Part shown: positions 34,926 through 51,984 of the stretch, one piece after another | Layout: each line of letters opens with the position of its first letter | Numbering within the stretch: the stretch's first letter is position 1 | Source: Halomonas sp. LR3S48 | Lineage (GTDB): Bacteria; Pseudomonadota; Gammaproteobacteria; Pseudomonadales; Halomonadaceae | Reading direction: 5' to 3' | DNA: 64,000 nucleotides | Assembly: GCF_025725665.1 (NCBI RefSeq) | Contig: NZ_CP107009.1 | Span: 2,294,001 to 2,358,000, forward strand | Position numbers and translations under genes: made by a program | Notes under the pieces: model-generated | The model's database searches: none | What the model was told of the DNA's origin: nothing | The model's input: only the letters and a program-made list of their open reading frames with translations

Positions 34926-35540
34926 TCAGCGCCGGTCAATCTGCGCTGCGGTCCAGTCGACCAGTTCGCGTGCCAGTCTGTCCGCCGCCATGCCGAAGGC
35001 CTCGACGACATTGGGGATGGCTTCGCTCTCCACCCTCTGTTGCTGGACGAAGCGCTGGCTGGCCACGAGTCGTTGTGAGCGGGTGTCGATCAACTTGGCG
35101 TCGAGGCGCAATGTTGCCACGGGCAGGCCGTCGATGTACTCGCTGTGGAAGGTACGGAGGTCGCTGAGCAGCTCCACATCGGCGGAGACCGCGCTGTCGT
35201 CATGCACCAGGCGCGTGATGCGCCCATCGTCCTGAAAGGCATCGAGCAGGCGATTGCGGATCAATTGCGGCATGCCGTCGGCCCAGCGCGCGCCTTCGTA
35301 AGCCCGGGGCTGGTTGGGCAACGGCACGACAAGGATCCGTGAACCATCGAGCAGGCCGCTGGCACGCGGCGTTGCCAGGCGCAGGGTCGCTTCGATTCGC
35401 TGCTCCGTATGGCGGGAGAGATCGAGGCTATGAGCCGGGAGTTCATACAGAGTGACCGGAGTCCGCTCCGGCACCAGATTGCAGCCGGCCAGCGACAGGA
35501 CGACTGCCATCACAACGGGCAGGGACGAACGATACGTCAC
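34926..35540 (-). CDS. PqiC-like ABC-transport auxiliary lipoprotein of an MCE system
   Basis: Outer-membrane-facing lipoprotein of the ABC_trans_aux (formerly DUF330) family. The 204 residues begin with a lipoprotein signal peptide, lipobox LAGC (17-20, lipidated C20). The segment VTLYELPAHS and the LLDGSRILVVPLPNQPRAYEGARWA region are typical of PqiC-like proteins. It is the last gene of the four-gene MCE operon and overlaps the MCE gene by 4 nt. It probably receives or positions lipid at the outer membrane side. Confidence 0.85.
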   Translation of the reverse strand: MTYRSSLPVVMAVVLSLAGCNLVPERTPVTLYELPAHSLDLSRHTEQRIEATLRLATPRASGLLDGSRILVVPLPNQPRAYEGARWADGMPQLIRNRLLDAFQDDGRITRLVHDDSAVSADVELLSDLRTFHSEYIDGLPVATLRLDAKLIDTRSQRLVASQRFVQQQRVESEAIPNVVEAFGMAADRLARELVDWTAAQIDRR

Positions 35541-36475: not shown

Positions 36476-37281
36476 CAGCGTTCCCCTCCCGGTGGTGGTG
36501 AGTGGCGTTGTGCCGCCTGGCTGGCGGCTCGCCCCCGTGGCCCGTGGAAATAGTCGCGTATCCAAGGGTCGTCGGTGGCTTCTACCATGGACAGCGAATC
36601 GGCGACCAGGACTCGCTTGTCGGCGATCACGGCAACCCGGTCGCAGCTCGAGTACAGCGTATCGAGATCGTGCGTGACCAGAAATACGCTGAAGCCCAGC
36701 GCGTCGCGCAGGGTCATGAGCAACTGGTCGAAGGCGGCGGCGCCAATAGGATCGAGGCCGGCCGTGGGCTCGTCGAGGAACAGTACCTCGGGGTCCAGCG
36801 CCAGAGCGCGAGCGAGCGCGGCGCGCTTGACCATGCCGCCGGAGAGCTCCGCCGGGTTGAGCCGGGCGGAATCGGGTGGCAGCCCCGCGAGCGCCAGCTT
36901 GACTCGTGCCAGGCGCTCGGCGTCGGCACGCGACAGGCCGGCATGCTCGATCAACGGCAGGGCGACGTTCTCCTGCAGATTGAGCGAGGAGAAGAGCGCG
37001 CCGCGCTGAAACAATACCCCGAAGCGGCGTTCCAGTCGCGACCGCTGGGCCGGAGAGAGGCGCATCAGATCTTCACCGAAGACACGAACACTGCCACCAT
37101 CCGGGCGCTTGAGACCGACGATGCTGCGCAGCAGTACCGACTTGCCGGTGCCGGAGCCACCCACCACGCCGAGAATCTCACCGTGCCGGATGTCCAGGTC
37201 CAGCCCCTCGTGCACTACGTGATGACCGAAACGGTTGACCAGCCCGCGGATCTCGATGATCACCTCGCCCGTTCGACTCAC
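36475..37281 (-). CDS. MlaF-like ABC ATPase of the MCE system
   Basis: ATPase subunit, 268 residues. It shows Walker A GGSGTGKS (41-48), the Q-loop FQRGALF typical of MlaF proteins, signature LSGGM, Walker B LFLDEPTAGLD and H-loop THDLD. The C-terminus (DYFHGPRGRA) matches MlaF-type ATPases. It overlaps the permease gene by 4 nt and the MCE gene by one base. Confidence 0.93.
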   Translation of the reverse strand: MSRTGEVIIEIRGLVNRFGHHVVHEGLDLDIRHGEILGVVGGSGTGKSVLLRSIVGLKRPDGGSVRVFGEDLMRLSPAQRSRLERRFGVLFQRGALFSSLNLQENVALPLIEHAGLSRADAERLARVKLALAGLPPDSARLNPAELSGGMVKRAALARALALDPEVLFLDEPTAGLDPIGAAAFDQLLMTLRDALGFSVFLVTHDLDTLYSSCDRVAVIADKRVLVADSLSMVEATDDPWIRDYFHGPRGRAASQAAQRHSPPPGGER

Positions 37282-38411
37282 CAGCCCATCTCCATGAAGA
37301 ACAGCGCCGCCAGCGCATCAAGCAGAATCACCATGAAGATCGACTGAACCACGCTCGAAGTGGTGTGCTCCCCGACCGACTGGGCGCTGGCGCCGGCCTT
37401 GAAGCCTTCCAGGCAGCCGATCACGGCGATGACGAAGGCGAACAGCGGGGCCTTGCCCATCCCCACCGCGAAGTGGCGCAGCGGAATGTCGCGCTGCAGG
37501 ATGGTGAGGAACTGGGTGGAGGTGATGTCGAGCGCCATGGCACATACCAGCGCCCCGCCCAGCATGCCGCTGAGCATACCGACCAGGGACAGGATCGGCA
37601 GGCTGACCATCATTGCCAGCACCCTGGGTAGCACCAGCAGTTCTATGGGGTTCAGTCCCTGTGCGCGTAGCGCGTCGAGCTCCTCGTTGGCCTTCATCGA
37701 GCCGATCTGGGCGGTGAAGGCACTGGCGGTGCGGCCGGCCAGCAGTATCGCCGCCAGCAGTACACCGAACTCGCGCAGGAAGGAGTAGGTCACCAGATTG
37801 ACGGTATAGACGGTCGCGCCGAAATCGCGCAGCACCGTGGCGCCGAGGAAGGCCACTACCGCGCCGACGAGAAAGGTGAGAAGGGCCACGATGGGAATGG
37901 CGTTGAGACCGGTCTGCTGGACGTGCGCCACCAGCGATGTGATCCGCCAGCGCCAGGGCGTGATCAGTGTGGCCAACAGCGTACTCAGTGTCAGCCCGAT
38001 GAAGGCGGCGAGCTTGAGCTGCTGACGGGCAAGCGACTCTACGACCTGTCCGAGCCCAGCCAGGGCCTCCAGCGGGCTGCTGCGGGGCGCCGGTGGGGCA
38101 AACGAAGGGGTCCGCGTGGCCTCGGCAACGGCCTTGAGCAGCGCCTGTCGTTCGACAGGCAAGTTCGGCGCCCATTGGGCGATGTCGCGCACGCTGTCGG
38201 GACCCAGCAGGTCGACCAGCAGGGCGGCTCCGGCGGTATCCAGCTCTCCGAGTTGCTGCAAGTCGACCGATTCCGCCTCGTGAACCTTGGCCACGGCTTC
38301 CCGCAGCCTGGCATAGTGTGGCAGCGTCCAGTCGCCAACGGCGCTCAGACGATGGGCATCCTGCTCCAGCATGCCGGGACGAGATGCGGTGACGGGCATG
38401 GCGAGTTCCAT
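37278..38411 (-). CDS. MlaE-like permease with fused N-terminal STAS domain
   Basis: Membrane subunit of the MCE importer/exporter, 377 residues. The N-terminal about 100 residues form a STAS/MlaB-like domain (DLQQLGELDTAGAALLVDLLG), then an MlaE permease domain with about five helices follows (about 120-377), including the conserved SMKANEELDALRAQGL loop. In the Mla system the STAS protein MlaB is a separate subunit, so here it is fused. The start ATG follows AGGGGGAG. First gene of the operon; IclR is upstream on the same strand, 82 nt away. Confidence 0.92.
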   Translation of the reverse strand: MELAMPVTASRPGMLEQDAHRLSAVGDWTLPHYARLREAVAKVHEAESVDLQQLGELDTAGAALLVDLLGPDSVRDIAQWAPNLPVERQALLKAVAEATRTPSFAPPAPRSSPLEALAGLGQVVESLARQQLKLAAFIGLTLSTLLATLITPWRWRITSLVAHVQQTGLNAIPIVALLTFLVGAVVAFLGATVLRDFGATVYTVNLVTYSFLREFGVLLAAILLAGRTASAFTAQIGSMKANEELDALRAQGLNPIELLVLPRVLAMMVSLPILSLVGMLSGMLGGALVCAMALDITSTQFLTILQRDIPLRHFAVGMGKAPLFAFVIAVIGCLEGFKAGASAQSVGEHTTSSVVQSIFMVILLDALAALFFMEMGW

Positions 38412-38493: not shown

Positions 38494-39309
38494 CTAGCGG
38501 CCGATGCCGTGCTGCAGTTCGCCAATAATGCGCCTCGCCACTTCCTTGAGCCTCGGGCCCAGGTTGTCGACCATGATCGAATGACCGAGTCGGTGGGCGG
38601 CACCACCGCAGTTGATGGCCATGACCTCGGCGCCATCCTCGAGGATGAGTGGCGTGGCGACGGCACTGATCTGCGATTGCCAGTCGCCCTCGGAAAGGCA
38701 GAAGCCGTAGCGGGCATAATCTTCCTGGCTGCGCCTTATGCCCTTTTCGAGAGCAGGCCAGTCGCTCCCATGCGCCTTGGCGAGTTCCTCCAGAACCGCT
38801 TCGCGGCGCGCTTCAGGAAGACCACAGAGCCAGGCACGTCCGATCGCCGTGGTCGCCATCGGCAGCCGCGACCCTACGTCGAGCCGCACGATCAGCGGGC
38901 CGCTGCCATGGCAGCTCTCGATGTACATGATGTCGTTCTTGTCGGCCGCTCCCAGGCTGACGTTGCAGTCGGTGGCTTCGGCAAATTGCTGCATGAAAGG
39001 GCGGGCGATCTCGCGAATGCCCTGGCTGGCCAGGAAGCGATAGCCCAGCGCCAGGATGCCCGGGCCCAGGCGGTACTTCTCCAGCCGGGTGTTGTGGCGC
39101 AGGTAGCCGAGCTGGGTCAGCGTGTAGGTCAGACGTGACACCGTAGGGCGCGGAATGCCGGTGCGGCTGGAGAGTTCGGCATTGCCCAGGTACTCCTCGC
39201 CGGTGCCGAAGGCGCGCAGCAGTTCGAGCCCACGGGCGAGGGCGGTGACGAAGTTGCGATCCTTGGCCGGAGTGTCCGGCTCATCTTCCAGGGGGGCAGG
39301 CTTGTTCAT
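38494..39309 (-). CDS. IclR-family transcriptional regulator, likely regulator of the adjacent CoA pathway
   Basis: Regulator of 271 residues. An N-terminal winged HTH (about 15-75; FVTALARGLELLRAFG, then LSSRTGIPRPTVSRLTYTL) is followed by the IclR effector domain (about 95-260). It lies directly downstream of the thiolase gene (93-nt gap) on the same strand and may be cotranscribed. The exact palindrome TTCCGC-N3-GCGGAA in front of the divergent paaH-like/acyl-CoA dehydrogenase genes and again in front of the TAXI-TRAP operon is the natural candidate operator. Confidence 0.92.
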   Translation of the reverse strand: MNKPAPLEDEPDTPAKDRNFVTALARGLELLRAFGTGEEYLGNAELSSRTGIPRPTVSRLTYTLTQLGYLRHNTRLEKYRLGPGILALGYRFLASQGIREIARPFMQQFAEATDCNVSLGAADKNDIMYIESCHGSGPLIVRLDVGSRLPMATTAIGRAWLCGLPEARREAVLEELAKAHGSDWPALEKGIRRSQEDYARYGFCLSEGDWQSQISAVATPLILEDGAEVMAINCGGAAHRLGHSIMVDNLGPRLKEVARRIIGELQHGIGR

Positions 39310-39402: not shown

Positions 39403-40611
39403 CTAGGCGTCCAGGCGTTCGAGGATGCAGGCGATGCCCTGGCCGACGCCGATGCACATGGTGACCAGCGCATAGCGGCCGCCCTTGGCCTCTAGCTGGC
39501 GCAGCGCGGTCAGGGCCAGTCGCGCGCCGGAAGCACCGAGCGGGTGGCCAATGGCGATGGCGCCGCCGTTGGCATTAAGGCGACTGTCGTCGGGATGGAG
39601 GCCTAGCTGCTTGGCGCAGCCCAGCACCTGGACGGCGAAAGCCTCGTTGATCTCGATCACGTCCATCTGCTCCAGGCCAAGGCCGGCACGCTCCAGCACC
39701 TTGTGGCTGGCCGGCACCGGCCCAAGGCCCATCACGCGGGGTGGAACGCCGGCCACGGCACTGGCGACGATGCGTGCTCGGGGGGCGATTCCGGCGCGTT
39801 CGCCAGCCGCCAGGCTGCCGACGATCAGTGCCGCGGCGCCATCGTTGAGCCCGGAGGCGTTGCCCGCAGTAACCACGCCGCCCTCGAACAGCGGGCCGAG
39901 CCGGGACAGCTTGTCGATATCGGTGCCCGGGCGCGGATGCTCGTCGCGGTTCACCAGTAGGGGTGACTGCTTGCGCCCCTGGGGCACCTCGACGGACATT
40001 AGTTCGTCGTCGTAGAAGCCCCGGGCCAGCGCCTCGGAGTAGCGCGCCTGGGAGCGAGCAGCAAAGGCGTCGCTGGCGTCGCGGCCGATGTCGAGGTCGT
40101 GGGCCACGTTATCGGCAGTCTCAGGCATGCTGTGGCTGCCGTACTCGCGGGCAATCCAGGGGTTGGGAAAGCGCGAGCCGATCACGGTGTCGTAAAGCGG
40201 CTGATTACGGGCGAAAGGCGACTCGGCCTTGCCCAGCACATAGGGCGCGCGGGACATCGACTCCACGCCACCGGCCAGGAACAGCTCGCCCTCGCCGAGG
40301 CGCGTGGCACGGGCGGCATCGATCACCGCGGCGAGTCCGCTGCCGCACAATCGGTTGACCGTTTGCGCCGCGACTTCGACGGGCAGCCCCGCCAACAGCC
40401 CGGCATGACGGGCGACGTTGCGCGAATCCTCGCCGGCCTGATTGGTACAGCCGGCCAATACCTCTTCATAGGCCTCGGCGGCAAAGCCGTTGCGCTCGAC
40501 CAATGCCTTGAGCACCTGGCCGAGCAGATCGTCGGGACGCACCGCGGCGAGACTGCCGCCGTGGCGTCCGAAAGGCGTGCGCAGGCCGTCGAAGATATAG
40601 GCGTCTTGCAT
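39403..40611 (-). CDS. Acyl-CoA thiolase, 3-oxoadipyl-CoA thiolase type (PaaJ/PcaF-like)
   Basis: Cleaves a 3-oxoacyl-CoA into acetyl-CoA and a chain shorter by two carbons. The 402 residues from the ATG after AAGGAGCTTTTCC contain nucleophile C89 (NRLCGSG), H356 (GHPLGASGAR) and C386 (CIGVGQG). The N-terminus DAYIFDGLRTPFGRHGG is that of PaaJ/PcaF thiolases, which act on 3-oxoadipyl-CoA. No other phenylacetate or protocatechuate genes are present, so a dicarboxylic or related chain is possible. It starts 20 nt after the paaH-like stop. Confidence 0.88.
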   Translation of the reverse strand: MQDAYIFDGLRTPFGRHGGSLAAVRPDDLLGQVLKALVERNGFAAEAYEEVLAGCTNQAGEDSRNVARHAGLLAGLPVEVAAQTVNRLCGSGLAAVIDAARATRLGEGELFLAGGVESMSRAPYVLGKAESPFARNQPLYDTVIGSRFPNPWIAREYGSHSMPETADNVAHDLDIGRDASDAFAARSQARYSEALARGFYDDELMSVEVPQGRKQSPLLVNRDEHPRPGTDIDKLSRLGPLFEGGVVTAGNASGLNDGAAALIVGSLAAGERAGIAPRARIVASAVAGVPPRVMGLGPVPASHKVLERAGLGLEQMDVIEINEAFAVQVLGCAKQLGLHPDDSRLNANGGAIAIGHPLGASGARLALTALRQLEAKGGRYALVTMCIGVGQGIACILERLDA

Positions 40612-40631
40612 GGAAAAGCTCCTTGGAGGCA

Positions 40632-42167
40632 TCAAGCCGCGGTCAGCGGCAGGCCGAGTCTGGCGCGGCGGCGCAGCCAGGGGCTCGCACGGTAGCGCGG
40701 GTCGCCGGTGGCGGCCAGCAGGTTGTCGAGGATGGTGAGGATCCGACGGCTGCCGTAGTGGTCACCCATGGCAAGTGGCCCGAGGGGGTAGCCCAGACCC
40801 AGCTCCACGGCGCGATCGATGGTTTGTGGCTCGGCCACGCCCTGCTGGGCGATCTCGCTGCCGACGTTGACGATGCAGGCCACCACCCGCTGCAGCACGA
40901 AGCCGTTGCTGTCGTTGATCACGCTGACCGGTGTGCCGTCGTGGCCGAGCAGGGCCATGGCGGCGTCACGTATCTCGTTGCGAGTCGCCGGGGTGGTCAT
41001 CAGGCTGCGACGCTTGCCGAGGCCGGCCAGCAGGTCGACGGCCACGCAGCGCTCGGCCGGCAGGCCCAGGCGCAGGGCGCAGCCGGTGGCGTCCTCGCCC
41101 AGCGGGGCGAGCAGGAAGAGGGCCTCGGCCGAGGGCGCCGCGCTGCTCTCCAGCGGCCAGCCTGCACTGCGTACCAGGTCGGTGAGCTGTCGGCGGGCGT
41201 CATCGTCCTCGGCGCCAATCCACACGGCAAGCGGTTCGGATGTGGGCAGCGGGGGTTCCTCGGGCACCTGGGGTTTGCCATCGACGTAGCGGTAGAAGCC
41301 TTCGCCGCTCTTGCGCCCGAGCAGGCCCGCGGTCAGCCGCTGGCGGGTCAGCGGCGAGGGGCGAAAGCGCGGCTCCTCGTAGTACTGGTGATAGATCGAC
41401 TCCATCACCGCATGGGAGACGTCGAGCCCGGTAAGGTCGAGCAGGGCGAACGGCCCCATGCGAAAGCCACCCTGGTCGACCAGGATGCGATCGATGGTGA
41501 CGTGGTCGGTCACGCTCTCGCCAAGGATGCGCAGCGCCTCGGTGCCGAAGGCGCGGCCGGCGTGATTGACCAGGAACCCCGGCGTGTCGGTGGTGCGGGC
41601 GGTGAAGTGCCCCATCGCCTGACCCAACGCCTCCACCCGTTCGGCCACTTCCGAGTCGGTTCGCAGTCCTGGAATCACTTCGACGATCTTCATCAGCGGG
41701 ACGGGGTTGAAGAAGTGAAAGCCAATGACGCGCTCGGGGCGGCGGCAGGCCGACGCGATGGCGGTGACCGACAGCGACGAGGTATTGGTGGCCAGCACCG
41801 CCTGCTCGTCGAGAATTTCTTCGAGTTCGGTGAAGAGTGACTGCTTGGCCTCGAGCTTTTCGACAATGGCCTCGACGACGATGTCGCACCCGGCGAGATC
41901 GGCAAGGCTGACGGCTTCCTTGAGGCTGGCCCGATAGCGCTCGGCATCGGCCTCGCTCAAGCGCTGCTTCTCGACGCTGCGTGACCACATACCTCCAATG
42001 AATGCCTGGGCTTCGGCTACGGCCCCCTCGCGCAGGTCGTGAAGGTAGACGGTCAAGCCGGCCTGGGCGGCGATCTGGGCGATTCCACGACCCATGGCAC
42101 CGGTACCGACGATGCCCAGTGCGCGAAAGGGGGGGATGAGGTTGGGAGAAGCGGGGGTGGTCGACAT
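40632..42167 (-). CDS. 3-hydroxyacyl-CoA dehydrogenase, PaaH-like
   Basis: NAD-dependent oxidation of 3-hydroxyacyl-CoA to 3-oxoacyl-CoA. The 511 residues start at the ATG at 42167, preceded by AGGAGAACGTCACCCC. The Rossmann motif GTGAMG (21-26) opens the 3HCDH_N domain. The catalytic His lies in FHFFNPVPLMKIVEV. A second C-terminal 3HCDH domain (about 410-505) gives the long PaaH/PaaC form, not the 280-residue form. It is divergent from the acyl-CoA dehydrogenase gene and heads the paaH-thiolase-(iclR) unit. Confidence 0.9.
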   Translation of the reverse strand: MSTTPASPNLIPPFRALGIVGTGAMGRGIAQIAAQAGLTVYLHDLREGAVAEAQAFIGGMWSRSVEKQRLSEADAERYRASLKEAVSLADLAGCDIVVEAIVEKLEAKQSLFTELEEILDEQAVLATNTSSLSVTAIASACRRPERVIGFHFFNPVPLMKIVEVIPGLRTDSEVAERVEALGQAMGHFTARTTDTPGFLVNHAGRAFGTEALRILGESVTDHVTIDRILVDQGGFRMGPFALLDLTGLDVSHAVMESIYHQYYEEPRFRPSPLTRQRLTAGLLGRKSGEGFYRYVDGKPQVPEEPPLPTSEPLAVWIGAEDDDARRQLTDLVRSAGWPLESSAAPSAEALFLLAPLGEDATGCALRLGLPAERCVAVDLLAGLGKRRSLMTTPATRNEIRDAAMALLGHDGTPVSVINDSNGFVLQRVVACIVNVGSEIAQQGVAEPQTIDRAVELGLGYPLGPLAMGDHYGSRRILTILDNLLAATGDPRYRASPWLRRRARLGLPLTAA

Positions 42168-42200
42168 GGGGTGACGTTCTCCTGACTGCATTGATCTTTG

Positions 42201-42215
42201 TTCCGCAAAGCGGAA
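42201..42215. promoter_or_regulatory. Exact IclR-type palindrome, site 1
   Basis: TTCCGC-AAA-GCGGAA, a perfect 6-3-6 palindrome. It lies 17-31 nt downstream of the predicted minus-strand start of the paaH-like gene, a position suited to repression. The same 12 fixed bases recur at 51868-51882. Confidence 0.75.
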
Positions 42216-42238
42216 TCAAGTTTCGTTTATTGACTGAC

Positions 42239-42267
42239 ATCCTAGGCTATGCAACAGTGCCTGACAA
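42239..42267 (-). promoter_or_regulatory. Predicted promoter of the paaH-like/thiolase operon
   Basis: On the minus strand TTGTCA (42262-42267), a 17-nt spacer and TAGGAT (42239-42244). It is bracketed by palindrome sites on both sides. I could not assign a convincing plus-strand promoter for the acyl-CoA dehydrogenase operon. Confidence 0.6.
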
Positions 42268-42284
42268 CCAAATGCGGGCCTTCA

Positions 42285-42299
42285 TTCTGCCAAGCGAAA
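42285..42299. promoter_or_regulatory. Degenerate IclR-type palindrome, site 2
   Basis: TTCTGC-CAA-GCGAAA matches TTCCGC-N3-GCGGAA at 10 of 12 fixed positions. It lies 84 bp centre-to-centre from site 1 and upstream of the minus-strand promoter. Confidence 0.45.
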
Positions 42300-42377
42300 T
42301 AAGGGCAGATGACGCCTGTCATTTCAAGACCCGTCTTCCGTTTCAGGGTCAGACGTCACCATCTGTGAGGAACCGTC

Positions 42378-43529
42378 ATGATTCGCGATCCCGAACTGCT
42401 CGATCAGCTTATCGATACCATTTCCCGCTTCGTGCGCGAGCGCCTGATTCCCAATGAAGCGCGTCTGGCGGAAGAGGACGCCGTACCGCCCGAGCTGCTG
42501 GAGGAAATGAAGGAGATAGGACTGTTCGGTTTGTCGATTCCCGAGGAGTTCGGTGGCCTGGGCCTGACCATGGAGGAGGAGGCGTTGGTGGCGATGGAAC
42601 TCGGCAAGACCTCGCCGGCCTTTCGCTCGGTCTTCGGCACCAACAATGGTATCGGCGCCCAAGGCATCCTGATCGATGGAACCCCGGAACAGAAGGCCAA
42701 GTACGTGCCTCGCCTGGCGACAGGTGAGCTGCTCAGCGCCTTCTGCCTCACCGAGCCCGATTCTGGGTCCGATGCCGCCAGCCTGCGGACCACCGCGATA
42801 CGCGATGGCGACCACTACGTGCTCAACGGCACCAAGCGCTTTATCACCAACGGCCCCGAGGCCGACATCTTCACTGTGATGGCGCGCACCGACCCCGCCA
42901 ACAAGGGCGCCGGCGGCATCACCGCCTTCATCATCGAGGGCAATACACCTGGCCTGAAGCGAGGTCCTGCGGACAACAAGATGGGGCAGAAGGGCGCTCA
43001 TACCTGCGACATCATCTTCGAGAATTGCCGGGTGCCGGCCGAGAACATCATCGGCGGCCGCGAGGGGCAGGGCTTCAAGACCGCCATGAAGGTACTCGAC
43101 CGCGGGCGCCTGCATATCTCGGCGGTATGTGTGGGTGTGGCCGAGCGTCTGGTCGAGGAGTCGCTGAATTATGCCATCGAACGCAAGCAGTTCGGCGTAC
43201 CGCTGGCCGAGCATCAGCTGGTCCAGGCGATGCTTGCCGACAGCAAGACCGAGGCCTATGCCGGACGCACCATGGTGCTCGACGCCGCGCGGCGCAAGGA
43301 CGCCGGCGAGAACGTCTCCACGCTGGCGTCGTGCTGCAAGCTGTTCTGCGCCGAGATGGTGGGGCGTGTCGCCGATCGCGCGGTGCAGGTACATGGGGGT
43401 GCCGGCTACATGGCCGAGTATGCGGTGGAGCGCTTCTATCGCGATGTACGCCTGTTCCGTATCTACGAAGGTACTACCCAGATTCAGCAGGTGGTGATTG
43501 CACGCAACATGGTGCGGGAGGTGAGCTGA
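42378..43529 (+). CDS. Acyl-CoA dehydrogenase
   Basis: FAD enzyme that introduces the 2,3-double bond into an acyl-CoA. The 383 residues show the usual three domains, AFCLTEPDSGSDA (FAD/substrate loop), and the catalytic base E364 in YEGTTQIQQ, the position of short/medium-chain acyl-CoA dehydrogenases. The ATG follows GAGGAACCGTC. It begins a four-gene plus-strand operon with ligase, thioesterase and membrane protein, each overlapping the next. The substrate is unknown. Confidence 0.94.
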   Translation: MIRDPELLDQLIDTISRFVRERLIPNEARLAEEDAVPPELLEEMKEIGLFGLSIPEEFGGLGLTMEEEALVAMELGKTSPAFRSVFGTNNGIGAQGILIDGTPEQKAKYVPRLATGELLSAFCLTEPDSGSDAASLRTTAIRDGDHYVLNGTKRFITNGPEADIFTVMARTDPANKGAGGITAFIIEGNTPGLKRGPADNKMGQKGAHTCDIIFENCRVPAENIIGGREGQGFKTAMKVLDRGRLHISAVCVGVAERLVEESLNYAIERKQFGVPLAEHQLVQAMLADSKTEAYAGRTMVLDAARRKDAGENVSTLASCCKLFCAEMVGRVADRAVQVHGGAGYMAEYAVERFYRDVRLFRIYEGTTQIQQVVIARNMVREVS

Positions 43530-45172
43530 TGGCTCTTGGCAGTGAGCCAAAGGCGCTTGGCACTGAGCTGAAGGCTCCGTCAGTGACGCGCCGGGCGCCG
43601 GACGAGGAGATCTTCGGCCGCCTGGCAAGCGACTTGGTGGCCGAGCTGCCGGAGCGCTTGAGTAAGCGTGTGCTCGAGAACGCCGAACGCCTCGGCGACG
43701 AACTGGCGCTGGTCGACGGCGAGGTGCGCTGGTGTTATGCCGAGCTGGGGCGCGAGATACGTGCCGCCGCCGAGTGGCTCGATACGCTGGGGATACGCCC
43801 CGGCGATCGCATCATGACAGTGAGCGAAAACTGCCGGGCGCTGGTCGTGCTGCTGCTGGCGGCGAGCGAACGCCATGTGTGGGTGGCTATCGTGAACTCA
43901 CGCCTCTCGGCCCAGGAGATCGATGCCATTCGTGACAACTGCCAGCCGCGCCGGGTGTTCTATACCAGCGCGGCATCGCCGGACGCCGAGGTCCACGGCG
44001 AGCGGCATGGCGCGGATGCTTACGACCACCCCAGCCTGGGCCGGTTGAGGCTTTCGCCGCTGGCAGAAGTCGAGCCCGAGCCGGTCGCGGCCGGCGGCGG
44101 CGATCAGGTTGCGGCGATGATCTACACCTCCGGGACCACCGGGACGCCCAAGGGAGTGATGCTCACCCACCGAGGCATCCTGTACATCGCCGCTCTTTCG
44201 GGCGGTATGCGCCACCTCTGCGCAGGCGAGCGGGTCTACGGCGTGCTACCGATGTCCCACGTCTTCGGCCTTTCGTCGGTGTGCATGGGGTCGCTCTACA
44301 ACGGCGCCTGTCTGCATACCGTGCCGCGCTTCGATGCCGCCGCCATGCTCGCAGCGCTGGAGCATGAGCGCATCACCGTATTGCAGGGTGTGCCGGCCAT
44401 GTTCGCTCGTACGCTGGAGTTTCTGCGCCGTGCAGGACGCTGCCTCGTTGCGCCCGAACTACGCTATATCTCCGCCGGCGGCTCGCCGCTCGACGGCGAC
44501 CTCAAACGTCGTGTCGAGGCGCTGTTCGGCCTCACCCTGCACAATGGCTACGGTCTCACCGAGGCGAGCCCGACCATCAGCCAGACCCGCATCGACGATC
44601 GTTTCGACAGCAATACCGTGGGACGCATACTGCCGCTGTTGGAGTATCGCCTCGAACCGCTGAGCGAGGCCGGCGAGGACGAACCGGACCATGCAGGTGC
44701 CGGCGAGCTGTGGGTGCGGGGCCCCAACGTCATGAAGGGTTACTTCCGCCAGCCGGCCGCCACCCGCGCCAGCCTCACCGAGGAGGGCTGGCTCAATACC
44801 GGTGACGTCGCCCGCTTCGACGAGGACGGGCAACTCTATATCGTCGGTCGCAGCAAGGAGCTGATCATTCGCTCCGGCTTCAACATCTATCCGCCGGACG
44901 TGGAGGCGGTAATCAACGAGCATCCGGACGTCACCCTCTCGGCAGTCGTGGGGCGACAGGTGGCCGGCAACGAGGAGGTCGTTGCCTTCATCCAGTGTGA
45001 ACCCGGTGCCACTGTCAGCGAGGCGGAGCTGCGCGATTTCATCGCCGAACGCCTGGCTCCGTACAAGCGACCGACGCAACTGGTATTGATGGATGCGCTG
45101 CCGGCCACCGCCAGCGGCAAGATCCTCAAGGGACGCCTGCGTGAGCTGGCCAACCGCGAGGGGACGGCATGA
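43529..45172 (+). CDS. Acyl-CoA ligase (class I adenylate-forming enzyme)
   Basis: Activates a carboxylic acid to its CoA thioester with ATP. The 547 residues start at the ATG that overlaps the dehydrogenase stop by one base; a much longer open frame upstream lies inside the dehydrogenase gene and is not used. It shows the P-loop YTSGTTGTPKG, the A5 motif NGYGLTEASP, GWLNTGDVARFDEDGQL and the C-terminal catalytic lysine region PATASGKILKG. The acid it activates is probably the one delivered by the TAXI-TRAP transporter. Confidence 0.93.
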   Translation: MALGSEPKALGTELKAPSVTRRAPDEEIFGRLASDLVAELPERLSKRVLENAERLGDELALVDGEVRWCYAELGREIRAAAEWLDTLGIRPGDRIMTVSENCRALVVLLLAASERHVWVAIVNSRLSAQEIDAIRDNCQPRRVFYTSAASPDAEVHGERHGADAYDHPSLGRLRLSPLAEVEPEPVAAGGGDQVAAMIYTSGTTGTPKGVMLTHRGILYIAALSGGMRHLCAGERVYGVLPMSHVFGLSSVCMGSLYNGACLHTVPRFDAAAMLAALEHERITVLQGVPAMFARTLEFLRRAGRCLVAPELRYISAGGSPLDGDLKRRVEALFGLTLHNGYGLTEASPTISQTRIDDRFDSNTVGRILPLLEYRLEPLSEAGEDEPDHAGAGELWVRGPNVMKGYFRQPAATRASLTEEGWLNTGDVARFDEDGQLYIVGRSKELIIRSGFNIYPPDVEAVINEHPDVTLSAVVGRQVAGNEEVVAFIQCEPGATVSEAELRDFIAERLAPYKRPTQLVLMDALPATASGKILKGRLRELANREGTA

Positions 45173-45594
45173 GTGAATCCAACCAATCACCCCTGATGGG
45201 CTACCACGAACTGCTCGGTATGCGGGTGGTGGAGTGGTCGGAAGGGGTTGCTGTGGTCGAGCTGGTGGCCGATGAGCGTCACCTCAACCGCAGCGGCATC
45301 GTGCACGGCGGGGTGCTCACTTCGATGCTCGACAGCGCTCTGAGTCTCGCCGGACTCTACTGCGAGCTTCCCGGGCGGGTGCGCCGCGGCATGACCCTGT
45401 CGCTCACGACCACCTTCGTCGGGCCTGCCGGTCCAGGCCTGCTGCGTGCCACCGGCAGGGTGCGCGGCGGCGGGCGCAAGGTCTACATGGCCAGCGGCGA
45501 GGTCGTAGATGCCAGTGGCGAGCTGCTGGCCATGGCCGAAGGCGCGTTTCGTCGGCGCGGTGGTAGCGAATCGCCGGAGGGCATCGCCGAGTGA
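45169..45594 (+). CDS. PaaI-type hotdog thioesterase
   Basis: Acyl-CoA thioesterase of 141 residues with the PaaI signature GIVHGGVLTSMLDSAL (catalytic Asp in the helix). Such enzymes release CoA from dead-end intermediates and protect the CoA pool. It is coupled to the ligase gene by an ATGA overlap and to the membrane protein gene by a GTGA overlap. The C-terminus ends in a short Gly/Glu tail. Confidence 0.9.
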   Translation: MSESNQSPLMGYHELLGMRVVEWSEGVAVVELVADERHLNRSGIVHGGVLTSMLDSALSLAGLYCELPGRVRRGMTLSLTTTFVGPAGPGLLRATGRVRGGGRKVYMASGEVVDASGELLAMAEGAFRRRGGSESPEGIAE

Positions 45595-46979
45595 CAGCGG
45601 CGCGGCAACGCGCCGGCCTGCTGGCGCTGGTCACGTTGGCCACCTTGGGCCACCTCGTCACCGGTAGCACCGTCCTGCAGGGCGTCGGCGTGCTGGCGCT
45701 GGCGGTCTACCTGGTCTCGTTGCGCGGCAGGCTGACGCCCATGGCTCGCGGCCTTCTCATTGTGGCTGTCGTGTCCACACTGGTCGCGCTGTGGCGCGTC
45801 GAGGCTCCCGGCCGGCTGCTGTTCGAAGCGGCCGGCCGTTTCGCCTTCTTCGCCACATTCGTGGTGGCATTGAGCCTGCTGCGCCTACCTGCCTATCGCT
45901 CGCGGCTGGTGCGTCGCTGCGGCCGGGCCATGCTGCTGCAGCCGCCGGGGCGGCGCTATCCGATCCTTTCCATCGGCTCCGCCCTGTTCGGCATCATCCT
46001 CAATATCGGTGTGCTGAACCTGTTTGCCGGAATGATCGAGAAGAGCAATACCCTGGCGGCAGCGCAAGGGCGCGCCTGGGTGCAGCGGGCGCGCCAGCGG
46101 CGGATGATGCTGGCCCTGCTGCGTGGCTTCTCGCTGGCACCGTTGATCTCGCCCATGGGTATTGGTGTGGCGGTGGTGCTCTCCAACCTGGCCGAGCTGC
46201 GCTGGCTCGACCTTGCTCCCTATGTGATCGGCGCGGCGCTGGTCATCTTCCTGGTGGGATGGGGCATCGATCACCTCACCGGCCCGCATCCCGCCAATCG
46301 CAAGGCGACGTTGCCGGCGCCTTCCCTGGTGCCGCTCGGCCTGTTTTGCCTGCTGCTGCTGGGCATCGTTTCGCTGGTATTCCTGCTGGCCTGGGCGCTG
46401 CAGGTTCGGCTACCCATCGCTGCCCTGATGGGAGCGCCGCTCGGCGCGATTAGCTGGCTGGCCTGGCAGCGGCGTCACCTCGGTATGCTCGGCACGCCAG
46501 CGGCGCTCGTCAGCCTGCATCGACAGTTGCCGTGGCTGCTGGCACCGAGCGCCAACGAGGTGGTGGTGCTCGGTGCGGCAGGCTATCTGGGCCACCTGTG
46601 CGTGGCGCTGTTTCCGATCTCCAGTCTCGGTCCACTCATGGTGATCGTGGAGCCGCTGGGAGCGGCCAACGCCGTTTTGGCGATGCTGCTGGTGGTGGGG
46701 CTGGCCCAGGTCGGGATCAACCCGATCGTCACCGTGACGCTGCTCGTCGGCTTGTTGCCGACACTGCCCATCGAAGGGTTGTCACCGGCGCTGATCGGTG
46801 CCTCGTTGATGGTGGGTTGGGCACTGGCGTTGATGTCCTCGCCGATGACGGCCTCGATGTTGATCCTGTCGCGCTTCACCGGCGTTGCCTCGACCCGTAT
46901 CGGTTATCGCTGGAACGCCCGCTTCCTGCTGGCCTGCATTCCGCTGCTGGCCGGTTGGTTCCTGTTCGCACCCTGGTGA
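45591..46979 (+). CDS. Polytopic membrane protein of unknown function
   Basis: Protein of 462 residues that I do not recognise, with about eleven or twelve hydrophobic segments and no signal peptide. GTG start at 45591 overlaps the thioesterase stop (GTGA). Two segments stand out: LISPMGIGVAVVLSNLAEL in the middle and MSSPMTASMLILSRFTGVA near the end, both Ser-Pro-Met containing and pseudo-repeated, as in ion-coupled carboxylate permeases with two inverted halves. It may import or export the pathway acid. It ends 27 nt before the convergent FadJ-like gene. Confidence 0.65.
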   Translation: MTAARQRAGLLALVTLATLGHLVTGSTVLQGVGVLALAVYLVSLRGRLTPMARGLLIVAVVSTLVALWRVEAPGRLLFEAAGRFAFFATFVVALSLLRLPAYRSRLVRRCGRAMLLQPPGRRYPILSIGSALFGIILNIGVLNLFAGMIEKSNTLAAAQGRAWVQRARQRRMMLALLRGFSLAPLISPMGIGVAVVLSNLAELRWLDLAPYVIGAALVIFLVGWGIDHLTGPHPANRKATLPAPSLVPLGLFCLLLLGIVSLVFLLAWALQVRLPIAALMGAPLGAISWLAWQRRHLGMLGTPAALVSLHRQLPWLLAPSANEVVVLGAAGYLGHLCVALFPISSLGPLMVIVEPLGAANAVLAMLLVVGLAQVGINPIVTVTLLVGLLPTLPIEGLSPALIGASLMVGWALALMSSPMTASMLILSRFTGVASTRIGYRWNARFLLACIPLLAGWFLFAPW

Positions 46980-47006
46980 CGGTGAGCTCTACGCCAGTGA
47001 GTGATT

Positions 47007-48434
47007 TCAGCGGTGCTTGCCATCCATGGCCAAGGTGGCTTGGCGATGCGGACCGCCCAGGTGACGCGGGTAGCCCAACGCCTCGATGGCGAGCAGGTCG
47101 ATGTCGCTGGCGCGATAGGCCCAGCCGCGCTCGGCCAGCATCAGGCTGGCCGCCTCCATGGCGGCGTGTGGGTTGGCATCGTCGTCACGGGCCGCCTTGT
47201 GCAGCGCCGCTAACAGGCTGCCCTCGCGACTCACCACGACTGCCTGACGCAGCGACTTCAACGCGTTGGCCGCGGCCTGCTGCTGGTTGGCGTCGGCGCG
47301 TAGAGCGACCAGCTCCGCCATGCCGCCCTCGGCCGATACGACCAATGCCAGATCGGCGTCGATGCTTTCGAGATCGACCGCCGTTTCCACGGAAAGCAGG
47401 GCGATGCGCAGGCAGTGGGTCGGACAGGTCGCGTCGACTCCGGCGGCGACCAGGCAGGCCTGGGTGTTGTCGTCCGAACGAGCGGTGAATTCAATGTTGG
47501 CCCGCTCGGCTTTGCTCTGTAGATGTGCGAACAGCGGATGCTCGCCGAGCAGGGCGAGTCGTGTGAGGGTGAGAGCCTCTCCGGCATCGGGCACCTTGTG
47601 CGGAGCACGGGCGGCGAAGAAGGCGTGGATCAGCCCGGCGCGCTGGGGCGACTCCATGCACTCGAGGAACAGCTCGCGTTCGCGGCGCAGGCCCTCGGCG
47701 AGACTTCCTTCGCTGCTGGCTGCGATCGCCTCGATGCAACGGAAGGGCGAGAAGAGTTGGGGTACTTCGGCTTCCAGCTTGGCGCGGTAGCGCGCGATGG
47801 CCTCGGGGGCGGCCGCGGGGGGCGGGAGTTCACCGGTGACGCGCGGCGTCCGCCTGCCGTCGAGCACGTCGCGTGCCGCTGCCAGCCCGGCCTCGAGCGG
47901 GTCGTCGACATCGAGCACGGCATCGACGATACCCAGCGCCAAGGCTTCGTCGGCATCGGCGAAACGCCCGCTGGTGATCAAGTCCAGCGCCGCCTCGATG
48001 CCGGCGAGACGCGGCAGGCGTTGGGTGCCGCCGGCACCTGGCAGCAGCCCCAGCTTGACCTCGGGCAGGCCGACCTTGGTGCCGGGCAATGCCACGCGCA
48101 GCTGGCAGCCCAACGCGACCTCGAGCCCGCCCCCGAGCGCCGTGCCGTGCAGGGCAGCGACGATGGGCTTGGCGCTGGTTTCGAGAAAGGCGATCACCTC
48201 GGGCAGAATCGGCGCCTGGGGCGGCTTGCCGAACTCGCGAATATCGGCCCCGGCAATGAAGGTTCTGCCATGTGCCACCAGCACCAGGACGCGCGCCTGG
48301 GGATCTTCGTTTCCTCGGGTAACGGCCTCCACCAGACCTTGGCGCACGGCCTGGCCCAGGGCATTGACCGGTGGGTTGTCGATGGCAATGACACCGATAT
48401 CGTCGTGGCGCTGGTAGGCGACGGGGGACGTCAT
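47007..48434 (-). CDS. FadJ-like enoyl-CoA hydratase with degenerate dehydrogenase half
   Basis: Hydrates 2-enoyl-CoA. The crotonase domain (1-190) keeps the oxyanion-hole region [10 protein letters not shown] and both catalytic glutamates, E105 (ALGGGLE) and E125 (GLPEV), at the 20-residue spacing seen in FadB. A linker [15 protein letters not shown] matches the junction of multifunctional enzymes. The expected NAD-binding GxGxxG domain is not recognisable: residues about 286-420 are divergent. Yet the end ([22 protein letters not shown]) resembles the FadB/FadJ C-terminus. Total length is 475 instead of about 700. It sits 57 nt after the TRAP gene. Confidence 0.85.
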
Positions 48435-48491
48435 GCGGTATGGCTCCCTGTGTCAGGCTTCGGTTCGAATGGATGGTACATGTACGCTACC

Positions 48492-50585
48492 TCATGAATC
48501 GACGGGAGGCGCCATCTTCGCCGTACGCGGTCCCGCGTGGCGCTGGCTCCAGCGCGCCAGAAGCACGGCAGGCAGCAGGGCGGCCATCGCACTACCCAGC
48601 AGTTCGATCTGGCTGAGCGGTACCATGCCACCGCCGGGCAGGGCGAACAGCAGGCCGGCCACCAGCACCAGGCCGCGGGCCGGAATTTCATGCAGAGCGC
48701 CGATGCCGAGCCGGCCCACGCCGATCAGGTAGCCCTGCATGGCGGAGGCGAACAGCACGATGCCCACCAGCGCCTGTATGAATACCAGACCGATCTGCAG
48801 CGGCTCGCCTTGCATGATCAGCGCCGGGTTGAGCACGAACAGGAACGGGATGAAGTAAATCACGCTGCCCAGACGCATGGCCTGAAGGCCGGTGGCCATG
48901 GGGCGCGCGCCGGCCACGGTGGCAGCGGCGAAGGCGCCCAGTGCGACGGGAGGCGTGATGAAGCTGAGCATGCCCCAGTAGAGGATGAACATGTGCACCG
49001 CCATGGGATCGAGACCGCCACCCTGGATCAGCGCCGGTGCCAGTGCCACGGCGAGAAAGATATAGGCGGCGGTGACGGTCATGCCGATACCCAGCACGAA
49101 GCTGGTCAGCGCACCCATGATCAGCAGCAGCGGCACGCTACCCCCGGCGATGTGGATGAAGTCATTGGCGATGGTGCCGGAGAGCCCGGTCATCGACAGT
49201 GCGCCGACCAGCATACCGACGGCGGCGAGGATGGCGATCAACTCGGCGAACAGCTTGGCCGCCGAGGAGAGCGACTCGCCCAGCTCGCGCAGCCCCCAGC
49301 GATTACGGCGCGAGAACTGATTGAGGACCAGCAGCAGGGCGGTGGCGTAGAACGGTGCCACGGCTTCACGCTGCATGATCAACAGCATCCATACCAGCAG
49401 AGCGAAGACGAAGATGAAGTACCAGCCCTGCTTGAGGGTCTGCCACAGGGAAGGCAACTCCTCGGCGGGCAGTCCCTTGATGCCGTGGCGCGCCGCGTAG
49501 GCGTCGATCTGGATGAACAGACCGAGGAAATAGAGGATCGAGGGAATGATCGCGGCCAGCGCCACGGCGGCGTAGGGCACGTCGAGGAACATCGCCATGA
49601 CGAAGGCGGTGGCGCCCATGACGGGCGGCATCAACACCCCGCCGGTCGAGGCGCAGGCCTCGACGCCGCCGGCGAACGAACGGCCCATGCCGATGCGGCG
49701 CATGGCGGGAATCGACAGCACGCCGGTGGTGAGCACATTGCTGATCACGCTGCCGCTCATCGAGCCCATCAGCCCGCTGGAGAAGATCGAGACCTTGGCG
49801 GGCCCGCCGCGCACGTGACCCAGCAGGGCGAAGGCCAGGTCGATGAAGAACTTGCCGCCGCCGCTCTTCTGCAGCACCACGCCAAAGACCAGAAAACCGA
49901 TGACCAATCCGGCGAAGGCCTGGAGCGGCACGCCCATGATGCTCTCGGTGCTCATGGTGTGGTACATGGCGGTCTCCTCCAGGGTGGAGGGAAACGCCTG
50001 GATCGGCCCGGGCACGATATCGGCGACCAGCGGGTAGAGCGAAAACGTCGCGGCGATGACGGCGATGGGCCACCCTCCGGCTCGACGCGCCGCCTCGATG
50101 ATCAACAGCCACCAGGCGTAGCTGGCGATGATGGCAGTATCGGGAGCAGCGAAGGCCCAGCCGCGCTCGAGGATCGACTCGGCGTGGTAGACGAAATAGC
50201 CGCCGACGATCAGCGTCACGAGGCTCAGCGCATAGTCATACCACGGTACCGGACGATACTGCAGCGATGCCTTGATCGGCCAAAGCAGGTAGACCAGCGG
50301 CAGCAGCAGGGCCACCACGGCATAGTAGAACTGCGTTTCCAGCCCGGTCACGAAGCGCAGCCAGCCCAGGTTGAACAGGTAATCCAGAGTGATCAGCATC
50401 AACACCACCGTCACGGCGCCGGGAATCCAGCGCAGGGCGACGGGCAGCGGGCGCACGTGAGTGACCTTTTCCTTGAGCTGGCGTGGCGACTCGGGGGGCG
50501 AAGTGGCGGTGGTCATGGCGGCGTCCGTGGATCGGGAAAGGGGCGGCATGGCCGCCCCGGGGGCAGGCTCTTGCGGGTGAGTCAC
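48492..50585 (-). CDS. Fused TRAP permease (4TM-12TM, TAXI-associated)
   Basis: Large fused membrane subunit of a TAXI-type TRAP transporter, 697 residues with about 17 hydrophobic segments. The N-terminal part corresponds to DctQ, the rest to DctM (FSSGLMGSMSGSVISNVLTTG, ASTGGVLMPPVMGATAFVM). A GTG start at 50585 overlaps the TAXI stop (GTGA), the coupling style seen elsewhere in this operon; an ATG at 50516 would drop 23 residues. It shares an operon with the receptor gene upstream and the hydratase gene downstream. Confidence 0.92.
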   Translation of the reverse strand: MTHPQEPAPGAAMPPLSRSTDAAMTTATSPPESPRQLKEKVTHVRPLPVALRWIPGAVTVVLMLITLDYLFNLGWLRFVTGLETQFYYAVVALLLPLVYLLWPIKASLQYRPVPWYDYALSLVTLIVGGYFVYHAESILERGWAFAAPDTAIIASYAWWLLIIEAARRAGGWPIAVIAATFSLYPLVADIVPGPIQAFPSTLEETAMYHTMSTESIMGVPLQAFAGLVIGFLVFGVVLQKSGGGKFFIDLAFALLGHVRGGPAKVSIFSSGLMGSMSGSVISNVLTTGVLSIPAMRRIGMGRSFAGGVEACASTGGVLMPPVMGATAFVMAMFLDVPYAAVALAAIIPSILYFLGLFIQIDAYAARHGIKGLPAEELPSLWQTLKQGWYFIFVFALLVWMLLIMQREAVAPFYATALLLVLNQFSRRNRWGLRELGESLSSAAKLFAELIAILAAVGMLVGALSMTGLSGTIANDFIHIAGGSVPLLLIMGALTSFVLGIGMTVTAAYIFLAVALAPALIQGGGLDPMAVHMFILYWGMLSFITPPVALGAFAAATVAGARPMATGLQAMRLGSVIYFIPFLFVLNPALIMQGEPLQIGLVFIQALVGIVLFASAMQGYLIGVGRLGIGALHEIPARGLVLVAGLLFALPGGGMVPLSQIELLGSAMAALLPAVLLARWSQRHAGPRTAKMAPPVDS

Positions 50586-51742
50586 TCGAAGACCGGATCG
50601 AAACCGGCATCGCTGAGTGCCTGCGCGCGCGCTTGCATCCAGGCTTCGCGGAACTCCTCCTCGTCCTCAGGGGCGTCGGCAAGAAAGCCGTCCCATGTCT
50701 CGAGCAGCAGTTCCTGGCGCTCGATCAACTCGTCCTGGTGGGCCTGCATCTCGTCGGTCCACTCACCGATCTCCTTGTAGTACTCGACCACGGCGTCATG
50801 GAAGGGCAGCACCCAGGTCAGGTCCTGGTATTCGAAGGCGTAACCCACGGCGCCCGGTGCGGCGTCCTTGTAGTCGTCATAGTTCTCCTGCAGCGCCTTG
50901 ATCAGGCCGTAGGCCACCTTGTCGTCGAGATCCTGGTTGGCCACCACGATCGGATAGGGATAGCTGGCACTCGGTACGGGGTTGTCGGCGCTGACGTTGC
51001 CCGCCCCGGCGGTGACTTCATGCGGTTGGAAGTAGGGCGCCACCGCCAGCATGCGCTCCCAGCCCTCGGCATCGTCGGGGTCGAGCACCGGCCAACTGAT
51101 GCCGCGGGGGCTACTGGCGAGCTGCTGTGCGGGTGGGGTCACGGTGGTAGTGAAGGAGGCGTCGACATCGCCGGCGATGATGCCGTCGAACGAACGCGCA
51201 TAGCCGGGGTAGTCGACGCGTTCAACGTCGTCCCAGGTCAAACCACCGAAGGCCAGGTAGGCTTCGGTGCCCTTGTTCAAGGCGTCGTCACCGCGGATGT
51301 AGGCGATGCGCTTGCCGGCCAGGTCGGCCGGGGTCTCGACGTCGAGGTCGCCGGCCACCGCCAGCGACAGGCCGAAGGAGGCCGTGGAGGTGGTAATCAC
51401 GCGGATGGGCTGGGGTCCCCAGTCGCGATCGGCAAACATCATTACGCCCTCGGCACCGTAGTAGCTGGCGATGCCGCAGGCGCACAGGTCGACGCGTCCC
51501 TGCTTGAGCGGCGTCATTCGCGAGACATCGTTGTCGCCGGGCAGGATGCGCACCGAGGTGCCGTAGTGATTCTGCAGCATGTTGCCGATGGCCACGGCCT
51601 GGGCGTAGCCGCTTGAATTGGTGCCGTAGGCGGTCCAGGCCATGGTACGCGGCAGTTCGACTTCGGAAGCCTGGGCCGTGCCGAGGGAGATCAAAGTGAA
51701 AGGAACAGCGGCAACAATGAGGGAGCGAGACAGCTGGCGCAT
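50582..51742 (-). CDS. TAXI-family TRAP solute receptor
   Basis: Periplasmic solute-binding protein of the TAXI type, 386 residues. A signal peptide (about 1-26, cleavage near AQAS-E) precedes the mature domain, which includes WTAYGTNSSGYAQAVAIGNML and the family-typical GRVDLCACGIASYYG and GKRIAYIRGDDALN segments. The ligand is unknown; known TAXI systems carry dicarboxylates and aromatic or other organic acids. The start ATG follows AGGAGTTGCACC. It heads the operon TAXI - fused permease - FadJ-like hydratase. Confidence 0.93.
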   Translation of the reverse strand: MRQLSRSLIVAAVPFTLISLGTAQASEVELPRTMAWTAYGTNSSGYAQAVAIGNMLQNHYGTSVRILPGDNDVSRMTPLKQGRVDLCACGIASYYGAEGVMMFADRDWGPQPIRVITTSTASFGLSLAVAGDLDVETPADLAGKRIAYIRGDDALNKGTEAYLAFGGLTWDDVERVDYPGYARSFDGIIAGDVDASFTTTVTPPAQQLASSPRGISWPVLDPDDAEGWERMLAVAPYFQPHEVTAGAGNVSADNPVPSASYPYPIVVANQDLDDKVAYGLIKALQENYDDYKDAAPGAVGYAFEYQDLTWVLPFHDAVVEYYKEIGEWTDEMQAHQDELIERQELLLETWDGFLADAPEDEEEFREAWMQARAQALSDAGFDPVFE

Positions 51743-51771
51743 GGTGCAACTCCTGTAAAAAGTGATTGTTG

Positions 51772-51786
51772 TTTTGCTATGCGGTA
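51772..51786. promoter_or_regulatory. Degenerate IclR-type palindrome downstream of the TAXI promoter
   Basis: TTTTGC-TAT-GCGGTA matches the fixed positions of TTCCGC-N3-GCGGAA at 9 of 12. It lies 22 nt past the -10 box, almost the same offset as the exact site at the paaH promoter (23 nt). Weak as a sequence match; position gives it support. Confidence 0.4.
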
Positions 51787-51808
51787 TTTGATTCCGAAAC
51801 TGAACTCG

Positions 51809-51837
51809 ATACTAGGAAGACCCCGCTGCAGTGTCAA
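51809..51837 (-). promoter_or_regulatory. Predicted promoter of the TAXI-TRAP-hydratase operon
   Basis: On the minus strand a perfect TTGACA (51832-51837), a 17-nt spacer and TAGTAT (51809-51814). It gives a leader of about 60 nt. Confidence 0.75.
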
Positions 51838-51867
51838 CGCATGCTTGCCGGTGGGTCGCCATCTGCT

Positions 51868-51882
51868 TTCCGCTAGGCGGAA
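51868..51882. promoter_or_regulatory. Exact IclR-type palindrome, site 3
   Basis: TTCCGC-TAG-GCGGAA, identical in its 12 fixed bases to the site at 42201-42215. It lies about 73 bp upstream of the predicted TAXI-operon start and 96 bp centre-to-centre from the degenerate downstream site. Confidence 0.75.
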
Positions 51883-51922: not shown

Positions 51923-51984
51923 GCTTGCCAAATAACGGGCTGGGCAGGAAAACAGTCGCTTCGACCAAGGTATAGACGTTCCGG

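Follow-up and report, generated by a model that had tools for sequence, protein, structure and literature searches.

Paired palindromes as predicted operators of an IclR-family regulator in a putative dicarboxylate cluster of Halomonas sp. LR3S48

A 64,000-nucleotide stretch of Halomonas sp. LR3S48 (contig NZ_CP107009.1, positions 2,294,001 to 2,358,000; referred to as the window, with coordinates counted from its first letter) carries a cluster of genes for acyl-CoA breakdown and solute uptake together with a gene for an IclR-family regulator (iclR, 38494-39309, minus strand). Two promoters of this cluster, one reading towards a PaaH-like 3-hydroxyacyl-CoA dehydrogenase (HCDH) gene that is divergent from an acyl-CoA dehydrogenase gene and the other towards a TAXI solute-binding protein gene, are each bracketed by a pair of palindromes. 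These palindromes are very probably operators of the IclR protein, which is predicted to co-control through them the uptake and breakdown of dicarboxylic acids in these salt-loving bacteria. As an IclR catabolic regulon the system is of an ordinary kind; its long-range operator layout is uncommon. On the more tentative looping view described below, the bracket would be a modular element that has been reused at several promoters, from Halomonadaceae to Saccharospirillum and Alkalilimnicola.

The original prediction drew attention to two exact copies of the palindrome TTCCGC-N3-GCGGAA, and both are found where it placed them, at 42201-42215 (operator O2, TTCCGCAAAGCGGAA) and at 51868-51882 (O3, TTCCGCTAGGCGGAA). 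The genome, a single contig of 4,689,245 bases, has no others, and the same pattern read backwards, taken as a control, occurs in it once. Their claimed rarity by chance is likewise borne out, as 100 dinucleotide-preserving shuffles of the window gave 0.01 matches on average and none reached two. Both copies are intergenic as the genes are read. The first lies between the HCDH gene (open reading frame (ORF) from 42191, with the start probably at ATG 42167, preceded by AGGAG) and the divergent acyl-CoA dehydrogenase gene (42378), where a mechanical ORF in another frame (41200-42240) that covers it was taken as spurious; the second lies between a SulP-like gene, whose low end is at 51985, and the TAXI gene, which starts at 51742.

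These two copies are half of the set, since each promoter carries two predicted operators of the degenerate form TTYYGC-N3-GCRRAA. The partner of O2 is O1 at 42285-42299 (TTCTGCCAAGCGAAA), 84 bp away, and that of O3 is O4 at 51772-51786 (TTTTGCTATGCGGTA on the plus strand, TACCGCATAGCAAAA on the minus strand), 96 bp away and one mismatch from the degenerate motif. Between O1 and O2 stands a sigma-70-like promoter directed towards the HCDH gene (TTGTCA-17-TAGGAT, 42239-42267, minus strand; 9/12, shuffles 0.2), and between O3 and O4 one directed towards the TAXI gene (TTGACA-17-TAGTAT, 51809-51837, minus strand; 10/12, shuffles 0.1). With transcription assumed to start 7 nt after the -10 element, which puts the predicted starts at about 42232 (HCDH) and 51802 (TAXI), the downstream operators O2 and O4 are centred at about +25 and +24, and the upstream operators O1 and O3 at about -60 and -73, respectively. 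Among the ≤1-mismatch sites listed for the genome, O1-O2 and O3-O4 are the only pairs less than 110 bp apart. The window holds five such sites compared with a shuffle mean of 1.84, and because 5 of the 100 shuffles also reach five, the case for the degenerate partners is one of conservation and not of rarity.

Conservation was followed in two sets of sequences, a family sample of 121 genomes (G handles) and 80 named loci (L handles; the best 80 of 175 candidates) plus the window, which share some genomes and were not summed. At E ≤ 1e-40 the IclR protein has matches in 27 of the 121 genomes; 20 are full-length with at least 66% identity (the genome's own included), two are truncated or split (G038 and G010), and five have 38-44% identity. 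The proposal of one putative regulon is supported by recurrence of the palindrome beside the same genes in relatives, in the degenerate form; the exact one is seldom conserved there. The exact palindrome occurs somewhere in 31 of the 121 genomes, mostly away from iclR, and within about 15 kb of iclR on the same contig in G000, G063, and G119 alone. Positions 3, 4, 12, and 13 vary as pyrimidine or purine, so the exact sequence is too strict a measure of conservation, and TTYYGC-N3-GCRRAA is indeed found at fixed places around iclR orthologues, whose surroundings were read over up to 19.5 kb.

Sites with at most one mismatch to this motif were counted in the 300 bp 5′ of each gene in the named loci, after removal of loci that lacked the gene, fell under the identity limits, had a match starting past residue 30, or offered less than 300 bp of sequence. 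A site precedes the HCDH gene in 56 of 56 loci (49 exact), the etfB gene in 36 of 42 (27 exact), the TAXI gene in 6 of 10 (all 6 exact), and the hydratase gene in 5 of 10 (4 exact), with shuffle means of at most 0.95. The control genes gave 0/60 for the thiolase, 0/51 for a hydrophobic protein, 0/59 for the acyl-CoA synthetase, 0/8 for the permease, 0/22 for a GntR regulator and 3/42 for mla genes (neither ever exact), 4/81 for iclR itself, and 0/1 each for the SulP-like gene and the next gene. Four TAXI rows lack a site; three of them are paralogues of 37-39% identity, and the fourth is L166 (42%), in which the site lies further upstream; in L133 a site is present though the TAXI protein is only 42% identical. 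The sites before TAXI and hydratase genes reach out to Saccharospirillum and Alkalilimnicola.

Pairing is conserved as well. Defined as two sites 60-110 bp apart with at most two mismatches each, a pair is present in 56 of 58 HCDH/acyl-CoA dehydrogenase regions (a 777-bp region, L129, was excluded from the count), 40 of them with both sites exact; shuffles gave a mean of 0.22 and a maximum of 2. The best HCDH-ward promoter falls inside the pair in 55 of 56 regions; for transcription towards the acyl-CoA dehydrogenase the promoter is less distinct and lies inside the pair in 33 of 56. At the TAXI promoter, O4 has a counterpart at the identical place in L061 and L062, and L147-L150 have a site at -42 to -44. 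That functionless chance repeats could explain the palindromes, as the scattered exact copies in 31 of 121 genomes and the lack of genome-wide enrichment described below might hint, is refuted by this conservation (56/56 HCDH loci, and 56/58 regions with a pair against 0.22 in shuffles) and has practically no probability left.

Spacing within the pairs is narrowly distributed. In the HCDH regions it is 83 bp in 31, 84 in 12, 82 in 5, 85 in 3, 95 in 3, 94 in 1, and 87 in 1. For the TAXI pair, the window and two Billgrantia genomes (L061 and L062) share a spacing of 96 bp, and Saccharospirillum and Natronospirillum (L147-L150) have 94-96 bp, with two mismatches in the upstream member at three of these four loci. 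Hydratase pairs of 86-88 bp occur in L064, L068, and L069, with the second site at two mismatches, and Alkalilimnicola has pairs of 84 bp (TAXI2-TRAP) and of 92 bp, the latter beside a hydratase 58% identical to that of the window over its first 282 residues. Relative to the HCDH-ward promoter, 53 of 56 regions have 23 or 24 bp between -10 and O2, and 48 of 56 have 15-17 bp between O1 and -35 (20 in L142); in L147-L149, with 83-bp spacing, the script picked another promoter, 10 bp from O2. The four regions with 94-95 bp (L138, L139, L140, and L143) have an O1 to -35 gap of 27-28 bp while the -10 gap is still 23, so that about one helical turn (11-12 bp) is added upstream only. This addition, together with the spacing at the TAXI promoter, suggests a need for both members of a pair to face the same side of the helix, and the longer spacing by about one turn in one clade suggests looping or co-operative binding; there are few independent events, however, and the spacings of 86-88, 87, and 92 bp fit the phasing inexactly.

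The following course of regulation is proposed. IclR dimers, one on each member of a pair and probably linked into a tetramer, would most likely exclude RNA polymerase from the promoter between them, with the downstream operator near +25 acting as a roadblock and the upstream one strengthening binding through contact or a small loop. An operator near +25 would suit repression better than activation. Release would be brought about by a dicarboxylate, by the corresponding CoA ester, or by an intermediate of the 3-oxoadipyl type, and one signal would thereby switch TAXI-TRAP uptake, CoA activation, beta-oxidation, and thiolysis jointly. As the last gene of the HCDH-thiolase run, iclR would also be self-controlled. 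The more specific idea that this IclR subfamily represses through a micro-loop that spans eight or nine helical turns, with operators at about -60/-73 and +25, is tentative and falls just short of an even chance.

The strongest competing account, itself quite possible, accepts the operators and dispenses with looping. Here the members of a pair would be independent sites, the downstream one a roadblock and the upstream one controlling the divergent acyl-CoA dehydrogenase promoter, and their spacing would reflect only common descent of the core. The core promoter itself is strongly conserved, there are few independent states of spacing, and the values 86-88, 87, and 92 bp are not exact multiples of 10.5 bp, all of which would agree with this account. 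It does not readily accommodate the four regions of 94-95 bp, where the extra turn sits between O1 and -35, nor the recurrence of the bracket, with 96-bp spacing and a downstream site at +24, at a TAXI promoter that in the window is not divergent. The difference of about one turn in pair spacing between clades makes long-range co-operation of IclR proteins directly testable.

Assignment of the operators to the IclR protein draws on the family-typical sequence of the sites and on their company in relatives. The 38494-39309 product has an N-terminal HTH_IclR domain (61.4 bits, Pfam cut-off 22) and a C-terminal IclR_C domain (70.2 bits, cut-off 24), in keeping with the earlier statement that an IclR gene lies in the same block. 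That IclR proteins bind palindromes of 6-3-6 geometry agrees with Corynebacterium glutamicum PcaR, whose site is given as GTTCGC-N3-GCGAAC in a family survey (Suvorova and Gelfand 2021, PMC8222616). From the same survey, the WTTYCRYW3RYGRAAW consensus of a group 1 IclR subgroup comes near to the motif and shares its length, symmetry, and core; mismatches to the 17-bp consensus number two for O1, one for O2, one for O3, and three for O4, so that none matches all 17 positions (PMC8222616). O2 and O3 each depart from the consensus at one outer or central position, and position 4 of the 15-mer, which is C in that consensus, can be C or T in the present motif (PMC8222616). In Saccharospirillum and Natronospirillum (L147-L150) and in Alkalilimnicola (L166), the sites and the IclR occur together. 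Palindromes of 6-3-6 geometry resembling GWCYGC-N3-GCRGWC also stand beside IclR proteins of 38-45% identity in four of five differently arranged loci.

Another regulator, for example the GntR/FCD protein encoded at 34125-34853, might instead bind the palindromes and leave iclR a bystander. A number of Halomonadaceae loci do carry a GntR orthologue close to iclR, and the constant co-occurrence of IclR and HCDH means that synteny alone cannot separate regulators. This reading is unlikely all the same, since no GntR match was found in the sequence covered at L147-L150 and L166, which keep both the sites and the IclR, the GntR gene has an upstream site in none of 22 loci, and the motif is near an IclR-family class (PMC8222616). 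RNA hairpins (attenuators) in 5′ leaders are a far less probable explanation. O2 and O4 do fall within the putative leaders and could fold into a 6-bp stem closed by a 3-nt loop, and at O2 the pair 4-12 shows slightly fewer mismatches than expected (2/27 sites versus 4, by hand from column counts). However, O1 and O3 lie upstream of their genes' promoter; the 37 distinct O1 sites have 7 C-A mismatches at 3-13 and 9 at 4-12 (expected 8.2 and 6.4, by hand), and pair 3-13 of O2 is mismatched in 5/27 sites against 5.9 expected. The lack of clear covariation at 3-13 and 4-12 makes the signal look like DNA rather than RNA. A terminator-like site was not found in the HCDH region; the TAXI region has one (51953-51967), which lies upstream of O3. 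The hairpin was rejected because of the position of the sites and because three of the four pairs examined do not covary.

Several observations weigh against the IclR explanation. Genome-wide, the degenerate motif is not enriched, with 5 exact matches versus 5 in the reversed control and 102 versus 93 at ≤1 mismatch; the motif alone therefore marks no regulon, and it is clustering, pairing, and conservation that do so. Three of the five exact-degenerate matches are in the cluster, and the other two, inside ORFs (nqrD-like and pckA-like by sight), were judged to be chance. Two of the 58 divergent regions lack a pair, L100 having one site and L115 one exact and one weak site. The genome's own etfBA (etfB match at 1.80 Mb) has no site with ≤2 mismatches in 3,747 bases. 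All 14 Alcanivorax-type loci (IclR 56-59% identical) lack an exact-degenerate site, mostly over 10 kb on each side, and yet the recognition helix is nearly the same in the one such IclR aligned; sites with ≤1 mismatch occur in 6 of the 14, L162 and L164 sharing a place 640 bp before iclR, and four Alcanivorax-type genomes hold 6-12 matches compared with 2-6 in the control. L169 (IclR 56%) likewise shows 1-mismatch matches only, and L081, the fifth of the loci with a distant IclR, has no similar palindrome. IclR and HCDH orthologues co-occur fully, in the same 22 of 121 family genomes at ≥60% identity, so loss of either cannot test the link within the family sample.

The gene content points to dicarboxylates such as adipate as the substrate of the cluster. 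The thiolase (39403-40635, minus strand) is of the 3-oxoadipyl-CoA type (NCBIfam NF006001, 654 bits, cut-off 622), and the HCDH (40632-42191, minus strand) likewise exceeds its NCBIfam cut-off (NF006124, 683 bits, cut-off 508), the two models being at subfamily or equivalog level, while the acyl-CoA dehydrogenase and the hydratase are recognized at the level of Pfam domains. Relatives add etfBA (by sight), which adjoins the block with its own site (L065:11547-15215, L075:12722-16906, L089:174), two further acyl-CoA dehydrogenases, a second hydratase, and a nitronate monooxygenase-like protein, and the L075 block also encodes a DcaP-family porin (PF19577, 45.2 bits, cut-off 27). It is the 3-oxoadipyl-CoA thiolase and this porin, with the added genes of relatives, that indicate dicarboxylates. 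The dca adipate genes of Acinetobacter comprise an acyl-CoA dehydrogenase, a hydratase, a 3-hydroxyadipyl-CoA dehydrogenase, and a 3-oxoadipyl-CoA thiolase, along with a CoA transferase and an MFS carrier. The set of dehydrogenases, hydratase, and thiolase is thus alike, and one relative (L075) shares the porin; here, in contrast, an acyl-CoA synthetase takes the place of the CoA transferase and TAXI-TRAP that of the MFS carrier.

The inducer may be of the same kind, a dicarboxylate or its CoA ester. PMC12543098 cites a Pseudomonas putida PcaR, likewise of the IclR family, for a response to adipic acid and other diacids, and a diacid is therefore a reasonable guess. The nearest curated subfamily is PcaU/PobR/PcaR of Acinetobacter and Pseudomonas (TIGR02431), yet this best NCBIfam match of the IclR, at 145.5 bits, lies under the cut-off of 284.75, and the protein is not placed in it. 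According to the survey, PcaU/PobR/PcaR operators have other sequences and PcaU requires a third half-site, while C. glutamicum PcaR has the identical 6-3-6 geometry and controls a pathway via 3-oxoadipate (PMC8222616). Its outer bases differ, and it governs the protocatechuate pathway rather than the dicarboxylate beta-oxidation predicted here (PMC8222616). Tandem IclR sites are described there with centres 18-22 nt apart, and also about three or four turns apart (PMC8222616); the pairs in the window, at 84 and 96 bp and bracketing a promoter, do not have this architecture, and the micro-loop bracket is not among the tandem-site spacings in the parts of the survey consulted.

Halomonas-type bacteria are used as industrial hosts. 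A four-operator switch for dicarboxylate uptake and beta-oxidation, as predicted here, would be a candidate sensor for plastic-derived diacids in such bacteria. A report of this regulon was not found among the literature matches listed, and a distant-mode search of a plasmid collection gave no match to the divergent region.

Aside from the genes already described, the acyl-CoA dehydrogenase gene (42378-43529, plus strand; Pfam) is followed on the same strand by an acyl-CoA synthetase gene (43550-45172; Pfam AMP-binding, 260.7 bits; 5′ end approximate), a PaaI-like hotdog thioesterase gene (45169-45594; TIGR00369, 72.4 bits, cut-off 36.6), and a gene for a conserved hydrophobic protein of 462 residues (45591-46979) that has no Pfam or NCBIfam match. 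Twelve relatives of this protein align at 49-87% identity, and given its place inside the regulon it could be a further diacid carrier. On the minus strand, the TAXI gene (50582-51742; TIGR02122, 184.8 bits, cut-off 84.35) precedes those for a fused TRAP permease (48492-50585; TIGR02123, 584.7 bits, cut-off 320.65) and an enoyl-CoA hydratase with a long C-terminal extension (47007-48434). Adjoining iclR on its other side, the 34125-38411 segment contains the GntR/FCD gene and MlaE-type permease genes. One further palindrome in the window, at 31643-31657 (ATCTGCCAGGCAGAA), is one mismatch from the motif and has no known link to the cluster.

Some relatives show other arrangements. A second IclR of 38-40% identity is found in L082-L085, with GWCYGC-N3-GCRGWC-like palindromes and an acyl-CoA cluster in another order. 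The iclR gene is split in G010, and in G038 a piece of the thiolase runs into an iclR remnant (L080:15891-16660, L079:15578-16354), probably cases of natural loss of the regulator; in G038 no orthologue of the acyl-CoA dehydrogenase was found within the 19.5 kb searched. In L153 (Halomonas olivaria TYRC17) most genes of the block are in pieces, perhaps through sequencing errors. The ECH_1 domain of the window's hydratase covers residues 11-190 of 475, and the approximately 285 residues past it have no accepted family match. Because an Alkalilimnicola hydratase ORF (L171:2-1332) runs on into a stretch matching hydroxyacyl-CoA dehydrogenase, the hydratase of the window may be a cut-down fusion.

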